Assembly: GCA_021816955.1 (NCBI GenBank)
Contig: JAKAWP010000008.1
Span: forward strand, 1 to 39,643
Direction: 5' to 3'
DNA from: Thermoplasmata archaeon
GTDB taxonomy: Archaea; Thermoplasmatota; Thermoplasmata; Lutacidiplasmatales; UBA184
Length of the DNA stretch: 39,643 bases
Shown here piece after piece: positions 10,783-16,664 of the stretch. Each line of letters begins with the position of its first letter. Positions within the stretch are counted from its first letter, which is position 1. The notes below the pieces were generated by a model. The model did no database searches, was not told where the DNA came from, and worked only from the letters and a program-made list of their open reading frames with translations. Both the position numbers and the translations under genes were made by a program.

Positions 10783-11212
10783 CGGTCGTCCTAGCGAACA
10801 GTTACCGTTCCAGCCTATTTGACCTTGGGCCCCGGACGTCAGGGCAGCCCGTGTTCCCCGCTCCGCGCCGGGAGTCGAACGGGTTACCTTCGCCGCGGGC
10901 CGACGAGCGGTTTCGTGCCTGGACGCTCGATGACCTGAGCCGGCCCCCAGGAGAGCGGATTGTGGCCGAAGCGGGAACGCGACCGTCGCCCTGGCCCCGC
11001 CCGATCGAACAGTCGATTCATTCCGGCCTTTTGTGAGCCGACCCGCGCGGCCGCGGCTGCGATGCGTGCGGTCCGCCCTCCCCACAAGAGCCCCGCGGAC
11101 TCGGGCCGCCCAAGGACGGCCCTCGTCCCTGTGGCGGAACCCCGCATCCTTTGCGTGGAGGCGCTCGTCCCTCGGGAAGACGATCGCCTCCACGGTGGTC
11201 TTCCTTTGATTG
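10783..11212. other. Gene-free stretch between pdxS and the insertion sequence
   Basis: About 430 bp with several short open frames on both strands, none with recognisable motifs; all look like GC-driven chance frames. Apart from the pdxS promoter region at its left end (CAAATAGG on the minus strand around 10820), I see no RNA gene, repeat or clear promoter. It may be the original upstream region of the thiamine transporter operon, now separated from it by the insertion sequence. Confidence 0.5.
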
Positions 11213-11215
11213 AAT

Positions 11216-11249
11216 CGTAAGGGGGTCTGGCCGCGCCGTCTCTTCGAGC
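11216..11249 (+). repeat. Left subterminal inverted repeat of the IS
   Basis: CGTAAGGGGGTC (11216-11227), then a 7-nt insertion TGGCCGC (11228-11234), then GCCGTCTCTTCGAGC (11235-11249). The two blocks match the reverse complement of the right repeat perfectly over 12 and 15 nt; only the left copy has the 7-nt insertion. Confidence 0.85.
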
Positions 11250-11279
11250 GCGACCTCGGACTCAGACACCGAGGTCGCG
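11249..11279 (+). other. 11-bp hairpin just before the transposase ribosome-binding site
   Basis: Arms 11249-11259 and 11269-11279 (CGCGACCTCGG and its exact complement) enclose a 9-nt loop. A strong Shine-Dalgarno, GAGGAGGA (11283-11290), follows at once, then ATG at 11293. Insertion sequences often use such hairpins to block translation from read-through transcripts; that role is inference here. Confidence 0.6.
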
Positions 11280-11292
11280 GACGAGGAGGAAC

Positions 11293-12384
11293 ATGCGCAG
11301 GAACAAGAGACCCAAGCGGGTGAACCCGGTGATGCCGACAGTGGGAATCGACCTCGGAGAGACGATGAGCCATGCCACGATCCTGACGAACGACGGGGCG
11401 GAGACGTTCGAGTTTCCGATGAGCGAAGATGGATACGCCCTGCTGAAGACGAAGGTGGCGTCGGATGCCCGCATCGCCTTCGAGTCGTCGGGCACGGCCT
11501 ATCCGTTCTATCGACAGCTTCGTTCGATGGGGTACACCGACCTCACCGTGGCCCATCCCGCGGAGCTGGCGTGGATCGTGAAGTCGAAAAAGAAGAACGA
11601 CCGGCTCGACAGCGTCAAGCTGGCCCGTCTCCACAGCGTGGGAATGTTGCCCGAAGCGCACCTGCTCGAGCGGGAGGAGCAGCTCGCGCGCGACCTCCTC
11701 CTCCAGCGGCTCAAGCTCGGCCAAGAGATCGGCCGGCTGAAGTCGACCATCATCGGGTACCTCAAGCGGGAAGGGGTCTACCAGGACCTGCCCGACTCGA
11801 CCGATCACTTCTCCGTGCTTCGACGCACCTCGATCCGTGGGCTCTCCTTCGGCGATGAACGCGACTTGGTGCTCTCGAGCCTGATGGACCGGCTGGAGTT
11901 CGCCGAGAAGCTCGCGGACCAGTTCGAGGAGCGGATCCGACAGCGCGCGAAGGAGAAGGACGATGTGAAGCTCCTGATGACGATTCCCGGTGTGAACTTC
12001 TATCTCGCGTCGATGGTGAGTTCCTTCGTCGGGGATGTGCGACGGTTTCCCGACGCCGATCACCTGGCCAGCTTCTTCGGGATCGTGCCGACGGAGAAGA
12101 ACAGTTCCTCGCTGAAGCGGGTCGGTCATATGTCGAAGAGCGGACCCAGCGAGGGCCGGTGGGCCCTCTCGCTCATGGTCGACACGATCGCGAAGTACGA
12201 GCCGCACGTTCGGGCGTACTACGCGAAGTGCAAGGCGCGCACCGGGAGTGGCAAGATGGGCCACGTCCTGACGATGAAGAAGCTGGTGCGGATGATCTAC
12301 GCGATGCTCAGCCAACGCGAATCGTGGCGGTGGGAGCGGGAATCGCTGACGGAGCAGAAGCTGGCAGCCCTGAGGGCGAACTGA
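11293..12384 (+). CDS. IS110-family (IS1111-type) transposase/recombinase
   Basis: A 363-residue protein with both IS110 domains. The N-terminal RuvC-like domain has the DEDD residues visible as Asp20 (VGIDLG), Glu64 (AFESSG) and Asp103/Asp106 ([12 protein letters not shown]). A coiled-coil segment follows (about 120-225). The C-terminal Tnp domain has [14 protein letters not shown] (about 227-240) and [17 protein letters not shown], in which Ser271 is at the expected place of the catalytic serine, then HMSKSG. Family enzymes excise the element as a circle and insert it at sites chosen by an element-encoded RNA. The frame looks intact. Its strong Shine-Dalgarno differs from most neighbours, which suggests separate ancestry. 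Confidence 0.93.
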
Positions 12385-12402
12385 GGTGGCGGAGCTTCCT
12401 GG

Positions 12403-12535
12403 GATCGGGCGTCCGATCGAACCGCTGGTGCTTCGATTGCCGTCTGACGGCTTTCCTTTGAATGCGGTCGTTCGGTATCCGTTGGAGACTCTGTCTGCAC
12501 CGTCGAGTGCTTGTGTCTGTGTGCGGGAAATACCG
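12403..12535 (+). ncRNA. Candidate bridge RNA/seekRNA of the insertion sequence
   Basis: The 3' non-coding end of the IS folds by eye into three units. A 6-bp hairpin occupies 12403-12418. Next is a two-stem unit: an outer stem of 12418-12425 with 12464-12474 (three bases bulged, 12469-12471) and an inner hairpin GCCGT-CTG-ACGGC at 12439-12451, with internal loops at 12426-12438 and 12452-12463. A second such unit has outer stem CGGTAT (12473-12478) with ATACCG (12530-12535) and inner hairpin 12497-12510. Two stem/internal-loop units in a row is the known bridge RNA layout (target loop, donor loop). The 3' loop of the first unit carries TTCCTTTGAATG (12453-12464), matching 11 of 12 bases of the left flank 11201-11212. 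The two units compete for 12473-12474. RNA ends are estimates. Confidence 0.6.
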
Positions 12536-12611
12536 GACCGGTTGGACACTACCCCCGGCTCTCAAGCAGCCCCAGTGAGCTTCATGAGGGGGTGAGGGTG
12601 TGTAGCCCCGA

Positions 12612-12638
12612 GCTCGAAGAGACGGCGACCCCCTTACG
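12612..12638 (+). repeat. Right subterminal inverted repeat of the IS
   Basis: GCTCGAAGAGACGGC (12612-12626) followed directly by GACCCCCTTACG (12627-12638). It is the exact inverse of the left repeat apart from the 7-nt insertion in the left copy. Confidence 0.85.
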
Positions 12639-12739
12639 TGTCGATCGATGACGATCTCGATCGACCGGCGCGGCGACCGTCGGGTTATCGAGCGGCCCTC
12701 AGGACGCGTAAAGTTGAAGTGGGACCGGTGGATACCGAA

Positions 12740-12830
12740 AATGGGGGAGCTGTGGACCGGCTGAGAGGACGAGAGACCCTCGTCGACCCCAAGAACCTGA
12801 TCGGGGTAATGCCCGCGAAGGGACAGAAAT
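12740..12830 (+). promoter_or_regulatory. Thiamine pyrophosphate (TPP) riboswitch, THI element
   Basis: The conserved THI-box blocks appear in order: GGGGAGC (about 12744-12750), GGCTGAGAGG (12759-12768), a variable hairpin GACGAG/CTCGTC (12768-12773 with 12779-12784), GACCCC closing P2 (12785-12790), then AAGAACCTGATCGGGGTAA and TGCCCGCGAAGGGAC (to about 12825). The CTGAGA and CCTGAT...GGGTAAT...GCG...AGGGA motifs are the pyrimidine and pyrophosphate sensor cores. Spacing and order match bacterial and Thermoplasma examples. The closing stem P1 is weak by eye. It lies upstream of a thiamine-type ABC transporter, so ligand binding should repress transport genes when TPP is plentiful. Confidence 0.93.
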
Positions 12831-12849
12831 GCGGGGAGTAGCGTTGCGT

Positions 12850-12872: not shown

Positions 12873-14042
12873 ATGATTCCGACGGATCGTCTTCCCGGTC
12901 CCCGCCCGTGGCGACCCGGTCGACTGGGCCGCCAGATCGTGGCGGTCGCTATCGCGGTGGTCGTCGCCTTGGTCGGCTACGGCATCTACACTAACGGCGG
13001 CCTCTTCGGCGGCGGGGGGCGGGCCGGCGCCCCTACGCTCACCATCTACACGTATCCGAGCCTCTTCGGGGGGAATTGCGGCGGAACCCCCCAGTTCAAC
13101 GAGACGTTCGGCGGCTTCGAGGCGAAGTACCATGTGTCGATTCAGGTGGTCTGCCCGACGATTTCGCTGGTCGGCGCCTTGCTCGCCCAACGAGGCAGTC
13201 CGGGGGCCGACCTCGTGATCGGATTGGACGAACTCACCGCACCGGTGGCGCAGGCCGACGGCCTTCTGATCCCCTACGAACCGCCCGCCGCGGCGTTCAT
13301 CAACGGGACGCTGGCGGCGGAACTCAGCCCGACGTGGGGCGTGGTCCCCTACGAGTGGGGCTACTTGGGGATCGATTACAATACGACCTTCAACTCGGCC
13401 CAAGGAGGGTCGATCGCCCACCTTAGTTTGGACAGCATCGCCCAGAATCGGACCCTCGCCTCGAACTTCCTCTACGAGAACCCGACGACGTCGATCACCG
13501 GCGAGGAGTTCTTGGCCTGGGAGGTCTTGTACTATCAGGACGTCCTTCATCAGCCGTGGGAATCGTTCTGGAACGCGACGCTCGGTGTCGCGCCGACGTC
13601 ACCGGATTGGGGGGACGCGTTCTCGGCGTTTGTCGCCGGCCCGGGCGCCCCGGGCATGGTCGTGAGCTACACGACCGACCCCGCGTGCGCCGCGTTCGCG
13701 CCGAGCTACTGCGGGGCCCCGGGATCGTACAACTCGACGGTCTCGTGGTTCCACGGAGTTCCGTACGGATGGCGGACCGTCTACGGGATTGGGATCGTGG
13801 CCGGCACCACCCACCCGACGCTCGCGGAGGAGTTTGAGAACTGGTTCCTCGGTCCGACGGTCCAATCGCTGATCCCCACCTCCGAATGGATGTACCCCGC
13901 GAACTCGACGGTGGCGCTGCCCAGCGTCTACGACGCGGCCCCGAATCCGGCGTCGTTCGTTCCCCTGAACGATGCGCTCGCGCCGTCGTCCCTCGCGCAA
14001 GCGATGCTAGGATGGCTCGATACGTGGCAGAGCCTGTCGTAG
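12873..14042 (+). CDS. thiB: Thiamine-type ABC transporter substrate-binding protein
   Basis: A 389-residue protein with a hydrophobic N-terminal segment (about 20-42, QIVAVAIAVVVALVGYGIY) that would anchor it in the membrane, followed by a Gly/Ala linker and a periplasmic-binding-protein fold. TLTIYTYPSLFG is the typical first strand and loop of the ThiB/TbpA and iron-binding group; GADLVIGLDE, WGVVPYEWGYLGIDYN and TTDPACAAFAP are further conserved stretches. No lipobox cysteine is seen. Several N-x-T/S sequons occur. Thiamine (or TPP) as ligand is inferred from the TPP riboswitch directly upstream. It overlaps the permease start by 31 bp. Confidence 0.85.
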   Translation: MIPTDRLPGPRPWRPGRLGRQIVAVAIAVVVALVGYGIYTNGGLFGGGGRAGAPTLTIYTYPSLFGGNCGGTPQFNETFGGFEAKYHVSIQVVCPTISLVGALLAQRGSPGADLVIGLDELTAPVAQADGLLIPYEPPAAAFINGTLAAELSPTWGVVPYEWGYLGIDYNTTFNSAQGGSIAHLSLDSIAQNRTLASNFLYENPTTSITGEEFLAWEVLYYQDVLHQPWESFWNATLGVAPTSPDWGDAFSAFVAGPGAPGMVVSYTTDPACAAFAPSYCGAPGSYNSTVSWFHGVPYGWRTVYGIGIVAGTTHPTLAEEFENWFLGPTVQSLIPTSEWMYPANSTVALPSVYDAAPNPASFVPLNDALAPSSLAQAMLGWLDTWQSLS

Positions 14043-15676
14043 GTCGGCGCGGATTCCCGACGTCCCGAGGGGAGTCCCTGCTCCCGATGCTCCCGCTCGT
14101 CGGCTTCGTGGTGATCTTCGGATTCGTCCCGGTCGCCGTCTATCTGATCGGGGCCGCGATGGCGCCCGGTGCTGGCGCGACTTGGTCGAGCGTCGTGGCC
14201 GATCCGTTGAACCGCGAAGCGCTCGAGAATTCGATCACCCAAGGAGGCGCCTCGGCCGCGGTGGCGCTCGGGCTCGGTTATCCGGTGGGCATCTTCCTGG
14301 GCCGATACGCTGTCCCGGGCCGCGAGATGGCGCGGGCGCTGTTGCTCGTCCCGTTCCTTCTCCCGTCTCTCGTGATGGTCGAGGGAGTCCGCGAGCTCTT
14401 CGGTCCGTCCGGCGTGGCCGCGCCGTACGTTCCGCTCTTGGCGGGTCCTTGGGGCGGGTGGGTGGGGATCATCGTGGTGAACGTCGCCTTCAACACGCCG
14501 ATGGTCGTCCTCTTCACGGCCGCCGGCTGCGACCGGTCGTACGTGGAACTCGACGAAGGCCTCGCGACCTTGGGAGCCTCGCCCCGTCGGAGGTACCGGG
14601 AGGTCTGGGGACCTCCGACCTGGGTCGGGGCCGCCCAAGGCGCGCTCCTCACGTTCCTCTTCTCGGCCATGGGCTTTGCGGCCCCGCTGCTGTTTGGCCC
14701 CCAGTACTTCACCCTCGAAGCGCGGATCTACAGCCTCCAAGTGGTCTATCTCGAACCTCAACGGGCGGCCGCGCTGGCGCTCATCGCGGTCGCGTTTCTC
14801 GCGATACCGACCGTCGCCTACCTGGCGTTGCGCCGCTCGTCCGCGCCGCGAGGCGGTCGTCGACCGTTCCGTCCGGTGCCCCTCTCCGCGCGCGATCCAT
14901 GGGTCATCGGCGGGGCGGTCGGGACCGCGGTCTTGGCGGCGTTGGAGGGATCGATCGCCTTCACCGTGCTGTACCGGTCGGTGACCCTACCGACCGGCGC
15001 GTGGTACGCCGGTTGGACGACCCTTTTTGGCCCGGCCACGACGAACGCCCTCGGGGGACTCTCGATGGTCGGCGCGACCATCAACACGCTCTGGTTCGCT
15101 GCCCTCGCCGCCGCGATCGCTATCCTCCTGACGTTCGGGGGCGCGTTTTCGCTCGCCGGGCGCCCTCGCGCTTCCGTTCTCGTCCATCTGTATCTGTTCG
15201 TGCCTCTGTTGGTCTCCCCGTTGATCCTCGCCTTGGCGCTCGCCGCCTTCTGGCGATCCGTCCTCACCGGACCGGCCACCGTCTGGGTCTTGATCGTAGT
15301 CAGTCAGTCGATGCTCGGGCTACCGTTCGCTCTCCAGAGTTTCGAGGCGCCGCTCGTTACCCTGTCCGCGGCGCCGCGGGAAGCGGCGAGAACGCTCGGC
15401 GCGAGCGCGTGGTCGGCGTTCACCGATGTGGATGTACCCCGCATCCGTTCGGGGCTCGTGACCGCGGGCTTGTTCGCGTTCGTGATCGGGCTCGGGGAGT
15501 TCACCGCGACGAACTTCCTCGCCACGCCGAAATTCGCCACGATCTCCGTCGCGATCTACGAGCTCCCCGCGGATCGCCTTCCGTTCGCGGCGGAGACCGC
15601 GAGCGCTTGGCTGTTGATCGTGAGCCTCGCCGCGATCGCCGCGTTGCTTCTCGGGGGGTTCCGTGGCCGCCGGTAG
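14012..15676 (+). CDS. thiP: Thiamine-type ABC transporter permease, fused two-domain
   Basis: About 554 residues from ATG 14012, close to the length of bacterial ThiP, with around twelve hydrophobic segments in two homologous halves. Each half has the cytoplasmic EAA loop that contacts the ATPase: ELDEGLATLGASPRRRYREV and EAARTLGASAWSAFTDVDVP. The start is not certain; GTG at 14024 is an alternative. It overlaps thiB by 31 bp and the ATPase gene by 14 bp, which indicates a tightly coupled operon. It forms the membrane channel for the substrate delivered by the binding protein. Confidence 0.88.
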   Translation: MARYVAEPVVGRRGFPTSRGESLLPMLPLVGFVVIFGFVPVAVYLIGAAMAPGAGATWSSVVADPLNREALENSITQGGASAAVALGLGYPVGIFLGRYAVPGREMARALLLVPFLLPSLVMVEGVRELFGPSGVAAPYVPLLAGPWGGWVGIIVVNVAFNTPMVVLFTAAGCDRSYVELDEGLATLGASPRRRYREVWGPPTWVGAAQGALLTFLFSAMGFAAPLLFGPQYFTLEARIYSLQVVYLEPQRAAALALIAVAFLAIPTVAYLALRRSSAPRGGRRPFRPVPLSARDPWVIGGAVGTAVLAALEGSIAFTVLYRSVTLPTGAWYAGWTTLFGPATTNALGGLSMVGATINTLWFAALAAAIAILLTFGGAFSLAGRPRASVLVHLYLFVPLLVSPLILALALAAFWRSVLTGPATVWVLIVVSQSMLGLPFALQSFEAPLVTLSAAPREAARTLGASAWSAFTDVDVPRIRSGLVTAGLFAFVIGLGEFTATNFLATPKFATISVAIYELPADRLPFAAETASAWLLIVSLAAIAALLLGGFRGRR

Positions 15677-16664
15677 CCCCCCCGTCCTCTCCGTTCGCGA
15701 CGTCTCCGTGGAACTGGGGGGGCGAGCGGTCGTCCGGTCCGCGTCGTTCACGCTGGCGCCGGGCGAACTGCTCGTGTTGATGGGACCCAACGGAAGCGGA
15801 AAGTCGACCTTGTTGCGAGCGCTCGTCGGGTTTGAGCCGATTCGCGCGGGCGCGATTGATCTCGAGGGCCGCGACATCCGCCGGGTCCCCCCCCACCGTC
15901 GGGGCCTCGTCCTCTTGGGCCAGGATCCGGGCCTATTTTCTCATCGGACCGTCTACGATAACGTCGCCTACGCCCCCCGCCTGCGGCGTTCGGACGAATC
16001 GACCGTCTCGGTGGAAGTCGGACGGGCGCTCGAGCTGGTGCGCCTCTCGGGATTCGAGCGCCGTCTCGTCGACCAGCTTTCCGGTGGAGAGCGTCAGCGC
16101 GTCGCTCTCGCCCGCGCCCTCGCGGCCCGGCCGTCCGTGCTTCTGCTCGACGAACCGTTCGAGGGGCTTGACCCCGATGTGCGCGGGGAGCTCCGCACGG
16201 AGTTTCGCGAGGCGCTCCGCGCCGCCCGGGTCGCCACCGTCTTGGTCACTCACGACCGGGAGGAAGGACTGCGCATGGGAGACCGGACCGCCCTCCTCTT
16301 TGACGGACGGATCGTTGCCGAGGGTCCCACGGAGGCGATCTTTGCTCACCCCCCCTCGCCGGTCGCGGCCCGGTTCCTGGGCTATGCGGTCTGGTCGGTG
16401 GACGGCATTTCGATCGCCGGACACCCGTCCGACGCGCGGTGGGGGGATGGGCGTCTGGCGTCGGGTCTCCCGGCGACCGTTATCGACTCCACGGTCCGTG
16501 GCTCGAGGGGGTGGCTCCGGGTGCGACTGTCGACCGGCCCGTCGATGGAGCTTGAACTCGATCCCAACGAGCGAACGCCGGAGCCGGGAACAACCGGCAC
16601 GGTCGACTTTCGCCGCCTCGTCCGATACCCCCGCGACCGGCCCGAGGATCGACCGCTCGCCTGA
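15663..16664 (+). CDS. thiQ: Thiamine-type ABC transporter ATP-binding protein
   Basis: A 333-residue ATPase with all ABC motifs: Walker A GPNGSGKST (about 41-49), Q-loop LLGQDPGLF, signature LSGGERQR, Walker B VLLLDEPFEGLD and the switch histidine in LVTHDREEG. The C-terminal extension (about 250-330, VDGISIAGHP to GTVDFRRLVRYP) looks like a TOBE domain, as in FbpC/PotA-type importers and longer than E. coli ThiQ. It starts with GTG inside the permease gene (14-bp overlap). It powers import by the preceding two proteins, and the operon is under the TPP riboswitch. Confidence 0.9.
   Translation: MAAGSPPVLSVRDVSVELGGRAVVRSASFTLAPGELLVLMGPNGSGKSTLLRALVGFEPIRAGAIDLEGRDIRRVPPHRRGLVLLGQDPGLFSHRTVYDNVAYAPRLRRSDESTVSVEVGRALELVRLSGFERRLVDQLSGGERQRVALARALAARPSVLLLDEPFEGLDPDVRGELRTEFREALRAARVATVLVTHDREEGLRMGDRTALLFDGRIVAEGPTEAIFAHPPSPVAARFLGYAVWSVDGISIAGHPSDARWGDGRLASGLPATVIDSTVRGSRGWLRVRLSTGPSMELELDPNERTPEPGTTGTVDFRRLVRYPRDRPEDRPLA

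Follow-up and report, generated by a model that had tools for sequence, protein, structure and literature searches.

Insertion sequences (ISs) of the IS110 family raise the question of how an insertion site is chosen, and for an element in the genome of an uncultured Thermoplasmata archaeon we asked whether this is done by an RNA that the element itself encodes. The element lies on the window contig (JAKAWP010000008.1; "window" denotes the whole stretch of 39,643 nucleotides that was analyzed) of the 1.42-Mb host genome. It is an IS110-family, IS1111-type IS with its core at 11207 to 11208 and its body at 11209 to 12642. According to the original prediction, its noncoding 3' end folds into two successive stem and internal-loop units, one loop of which matches the insertion site. 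Based on sequence comparison, namely the fold, the matches and covariation between guides and DNA, and the crossover position in relatives, the window element with its predicted bridge RNA is very probably (probability of about 0.93) an RNA-guided IS110-family IS of the IS1111 type. Its DNA features, all on the forward strand, are as follows.

11199 to 11206, forward: left target (LT), TCTTCCTT, with TTCCTT the same as in the left-target (B) guide
11207 to 11208, forward: left core dinucleotide TG, with the crossover set by the empty sites of the relatives L003 and L013
11209 to 11216, forward: 8-bp extension of the left end, ATTGAATC, with an A that is invariant across all relatives
11217 to 11227, forward: left sub-terminal inverted repeat, GTAAGGGGGTC
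11234 to 11249, forward: inner inverted repeat, CGCCGTCTCTTCGAGC, with its partner at 12612 to 12627
11293 to 12384, forward: recombinase gene, 363 amino acids, with PF01548, PF02371, and NF033542 above cut-off
12627 to 12637, forward: right sub-terminal inverted repeat, GACCCCCTTAC
12638 to 12642, forward: right end extension, GTGTC, 5 bp
12643 to 12644, forward: right core position, with a deviant GA in place of TG
12645 to 12652, forward: right target (RT), TCGATGAC

The sub-terminal repeats GTAAGGGGGTC and GACCCCCTTAC match perfectly over 11 bp (12 with one flanking pair), and a 242-bp noncoding region (NCR; 12385 to 12626) follows the transposase gene (tnp). Repeats near the ends and an NCR behind the gene constitute the IS1111 layout (PMC11187229), and the element shares with the IS1111 subgroup the sub-terminal repeats of about 11 to 13 bp and the long NCR downstream of tnp. 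NF033542 is the model of IS110-family RNA-guided transposases. The protein carries the DEDD_Tnp_IS110 and Transposase_20 domains with the DEDD residues and the SG-motif serine that define the IS110 family; D20, E64, D103, and D106 (DEDD) as well as S281 of the SKxG motif were invariant in an alignment of 10 proteins. The window element has kept an intact open reading frame with all catalytic residues. Relatives in the PDB were IS621 and ISCro4 only, no relative was found in viral contigs, and order-wide and phylum-wide protein searches added little to the class-wide search. A second copy of the IS was not found in the host genome; a 33-bp stretch elsewhere in this genome (L002; G000:C31:615-647) shares 88% identity with a segment of the recombinase gene.

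The exact crossover position was taken from empty sites. L003, the closest relative, sits inside a serine-recombinase gene (PF00239), and in five uninterrupted genes of this kind the homology to the right flank of L003 starts exactly at TG (right junction, TTAC-GTATC-TG-TTGCG). In I-plasma, the L013 site occurs empty in three copies with the sequence CACTTC-TG-TCCCAATGTC, compared to CACTTA-TG-IS-TG-TCCCAATGTC at the site occupied by L013. The empty sites of both relatives thus identify TG, which occurs at either edge of the element, as the dinucleotide where crossover takes place, and the prediction that the mechanism makes for empty sites holds in these two cases. Under the published 7/3 extensions, TGA stood at the left edge of nearly every relative; the ends initially set by this rule were dropped, as the empty sites shifted the crossover to TG and gave extensions of core plus 8 bp on the left and 5 bp on the right. 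This suggests that a fixed 7/3 rule may misplace element ends. TG is found on the left in 16/16 elements and on the right in 14/16, the window element with its GA being one of the two exceptions. The ends originally proposed are corrected accordingly: the flank match TTCCTT-TG on the left stands, but of the 12 bases compared there only 11201 to 11208 lie outside the IS, everything from the following A onward belongs to it, and the element ends at 12642. L003 and L021, close relatives from two genera, each interrupt a serine-recombinase gene where it encodes its NMLAALAEFERE motif, and their guides match this site. A left end considered for L021, an end of the same group at a contig edge, was discarded; its flank differs and its repeat is not quite the same, so it is probably part of a different copy. 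L013 has inserted into a multi-copy sequence of I-plasma (L092, L100, and L105), which may be the terminus of a further mobile element.

An empty site of the window copy itself was not found among 78 genomes of the same genus, whose flanks could not be aligned except for a TPP riboswitch. This riboswitch (RF00059, 55.5 bits; 12733 to 12841) precedes a thiamine-type ABC transporter set (12873 to 16664), and the IS is located between it and a divergent pdxS-like gene on the left. Several congeners have about 130 bp between pdxS and the riboswitch, versus about 480 bp here after subtraction of the IS (10823 to 11206 and 12645 to 12732), so that further DNA besides the IS seems to have been gained. 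A 16-bp inverted repeat (94% complementary, 9-nucleotide spacer) at 11154 to 11194 stops 12 bp short of the insertion core, on its left side.

The putative RNA and its guides, again on the forward strand, are arranged in the NCR as follows.

12419 to 12541, forward: core region of the predicted bridge RNA (seekRNA), two units; covariance model match, 51.2 bits, E = 1.4e-10
12431 to 12438, forward: right-target (T) guide, CTTCGA and core-facing TT, of which TCGA can pair with top-strand positions 12645 to 12648, a weak match alone
12439 to 12451, forward: target-loop hairpin, GCCGT-CTG-ACGGC
12453 to 12461, forward: left-target (B) guide, TTCCTT-TG-A
12490 to 12493, forward: left-end donor guide, TCTG, which covaries with LE2-4 in relatives and here has one mismatch and one wobble
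12497 to 12510, forward: donor-loop hairpin, GCAC-CGTCGA-GTGC
12513 to 12519, forward: right-end donor guide, GTGTC-TG, the same as the right end extension GTGTC plus core

The fold was derived from 17 archaeal NCRs (the window element, two close relatives represented by partial sequences, and 14 further elements whose recombinases share 50 to 65% identity), which were aligned by MAFFT without structure and then analyzed by RNAalifold. The two stem and internal-loop units were recovered as originally described: in unit 1, ACCGC/GCGGT encloses GCCGT/ACGGC, and in unit 2, CGGTATCCG/CGGGAAATACCG encloses GCAC/GTGC. Double compensatory changes occur at 13/15 pairs, and 94.1% of the paired cells can pair, versus 76.4% after shuffling and 24 to 53% with the partners slid. 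A single-sequence minimum free energy fold was set aside because it blends both units, which the alignment-based fold keeps separate. A covariance model was trained on 14 elements, to the exclusion of the window element and its two nearest relatives. In the window, it matched the core region listed above and nothing else; in 103 family genomes it matched three places, each directly behind this recombinase. The two-unit fold thus passed the covariation test clearly, in the pair changes, in the shuffle and slide controls, and with the left-out model. The latter did not match at distant archaeal IS110 loci (about 27 to 31% identity). Rfam, searched at gathering score, held no family for the bridge RNA; its one match in the window was the TPP riboswitch. 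The RNA had been correctly located in the 3' NCR, with its boundary at about 12541 and that of the element at 12642.

Within the window element, TTCCTTTGATTG (11201 to 11212) and TTCCTTTGAATG (12453 to 12464) are identical at 11/12 positions, as had been counted. The match of the TTCCTTTGA loop to the left flank is real, and TTCCTT-TG represents the target plus core; the single mismatch arises because the constant A after TG, like the bases that follow, belongs to the IS and not to the flank. Taken alone, the left match ranks within the best 6 of the 2,841 window 8-mers that precede TG, with six contiguous exact bases and a wobble, and the right-end guide matches at 5/5 positions. The right target offers TCGA, four contiguous core-adjacent bases, plus scattered pairs, and 5.5% of all window 8-mers score equally; the left end has one mismatch. 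The similarity noted earlier between the loop at 12426 to 12438 and the right flank holds for TCGA, weak as it is, while the proper relation is complementarity (to 12645 to 12648) and not identity.

The guides (window 12431 to 12460) imply TTTCCTT-TG-TCGAAG as the best target. The window copy might accordingly be RNA-guided in type and yet represent a secondary-site or decayed insertion, which either used a partially matching site whose core is not TG or mutated afterward. This would fit the GA at the right core, the right-target mismatches beyond TCGA, the mismatch in one donor guide, and the presence of a single copy. We regard it as unlikely, although it deserves more weight than any other alternative: the reading frame is intact with every catalytic residue, six contiguous left-target bases and all five right-end bases match, and a better target was not identified, as the pattern TTCCTTTGTCGAAGC gave chance-level matches only in the 103 family genomes. 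TCCTT-NG-TCGA occurs antisense over STKE/STKD codons in some serine recombinases, which is suggestive only and may be chance.

The reading as an RNA-guided IS1111-type element draws most of its support from relatives, since those at other sites have different loops that match those sites. In 13 non-redundant elements, the matches of guides to their own flanks exceeded all 20,000 permutations for the left target (z = 6.0), the right target (z = 6.7), and the right end (z = 6.8), each analyzed separately. The elements are related, and this evidence is hence partly dependent; the guides still vary by element, following the flanks. The registers of left target and right end were fixed by invariant bases, and that of the T guide was chosen by eye from the structure, with L009 and L044 fitting poorly. 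The left-end guide covaries as well (CTG/CAG, TTG/CAA, and CAG/CTG; P = 0.007). The 3' strand of the target loop is identical to the left target, and its 5' strand is complementary to the right target. The donor loop carries the 5-bp right extension and then TG on its 3' strand, and a complement of the left end on its 5' strand. By comparison across relatives, target and donor loops are therefore complementary to both DNA strands, as is characteristic of the IS110 family, and the top-strand match precedes the bottom-strand match in the RNA, as in the IS1111 subgroup. L007 and L009 lie about 11 kb apart on one contig and differ in their guides and, correspondingly, in their flanks.

A flank match alone would fit equally well if the recombinase itself read the DNA site and the flank-like stretch of the NCR were a copied old target with no role as a guide. 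We consider this very improbable, because in many elements the two strands of each loop, set within a conserved fold, match four different DNA segments in correct order and register, and because experiments identified the NCR RNA as the guide in IS1111 elements (PMC11187229). A chance match within an unstructured 3' tail, for which one could cite that a lone 11/12 match within 1.4 kb is not compelling by itself and that the right-flank match is weak, is refuted by the left-out covariance model (E = 1.4e-10) and the permutation tests.

For the RNA-guided element, we propose that the bridge RNA encoded behind the recombinase gene would contain a target loop and a donor loop. To the right of the insertion point, the 5' strand of the target loop would pair with the top strand; to the left, its 3' strand would pair with the bottom strand. 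The 5' and 3' strands of the donor loop would pair with the left and right IS ends, respectively. The RNA would thereby join the target and a circular donor, and the DEDD/serine recombinase would exchange strands at the common TG, so that an inserted element would normally have TG at both edges. RNA production, protein binding, the circle intermediate, and the chemistry are presumed by analogy to IS621 and ISEc11 (PMC11208160, PMC11208158, and PMC11187229).

Archaeal IS1111 elements have already been said to use such RNAs (PMC11187229); they and their guide RNAs are thus known in principle, and the window element is a new, well-documented member. The TG core and the longer extensions are probably subgroup features. 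The balance tips slightly toward a distinct IS1111-type subgroup formed by the elements of Thermoplasmatota and Nitrososphaerota, with a TG core, extensions of core plus 8 and 5, donor-loop strands that co-evolved with both IS ends, and some members targeting genes of other mobile elements (e.g., the serine-recombinase gene). IS110-family recombinases underlie programmable DNA insertion tools. The archaeal set combines RNA loops with the corresponding IS ends, targets, and several empty sites, so that both the rules of loop-to-DNA pairing and the core dinucleotide can be deduced from natural variation and tested.

Among known systems, IS1111 elements with a seekRNA (ISEc11, ISPa11, and ISKpn4; PMC11187229) share with the window element the sub-terminal inverted repeats, the NCR downstream of tnp, and a T guide that precedes the B guide with a hairpin in between. 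Their published extensions are 7 bp on the left and 3 bp on the right, compared to core plus 8 and 5 here, although the published numbers may follow another convention; because of this difference, we use the label IS1111-type instead of strict IS1111. Bacterial IS1111 members from a plasmid collection show about 30% recombinase identity or less. One ISPa11-like bacterial element (L112), read without empty sites, has the same guide order and long matches to both flanks, with its repeats nearer the ends. Haloarchaeal IS110-family transposases (e.g., from Halorubrum and Natrinema plasmids), compared by protein alone, belong to the same protein family and were the best plasmid matches, at only 28 to 30% identity. 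IS621 of the IS110 group (PMC11208160 and PMC11208158) has in common a bispecific bridge RNA with target and donor loops, a core dinucleotide in both target and donor, and a related recombinase (8wt6). It differs in that its RNA is located upstream instead of downstream, the guide order is reversed, and the core is CT instead of TG; long sub-terminal repeats are a feature of the window element and not of IS621.
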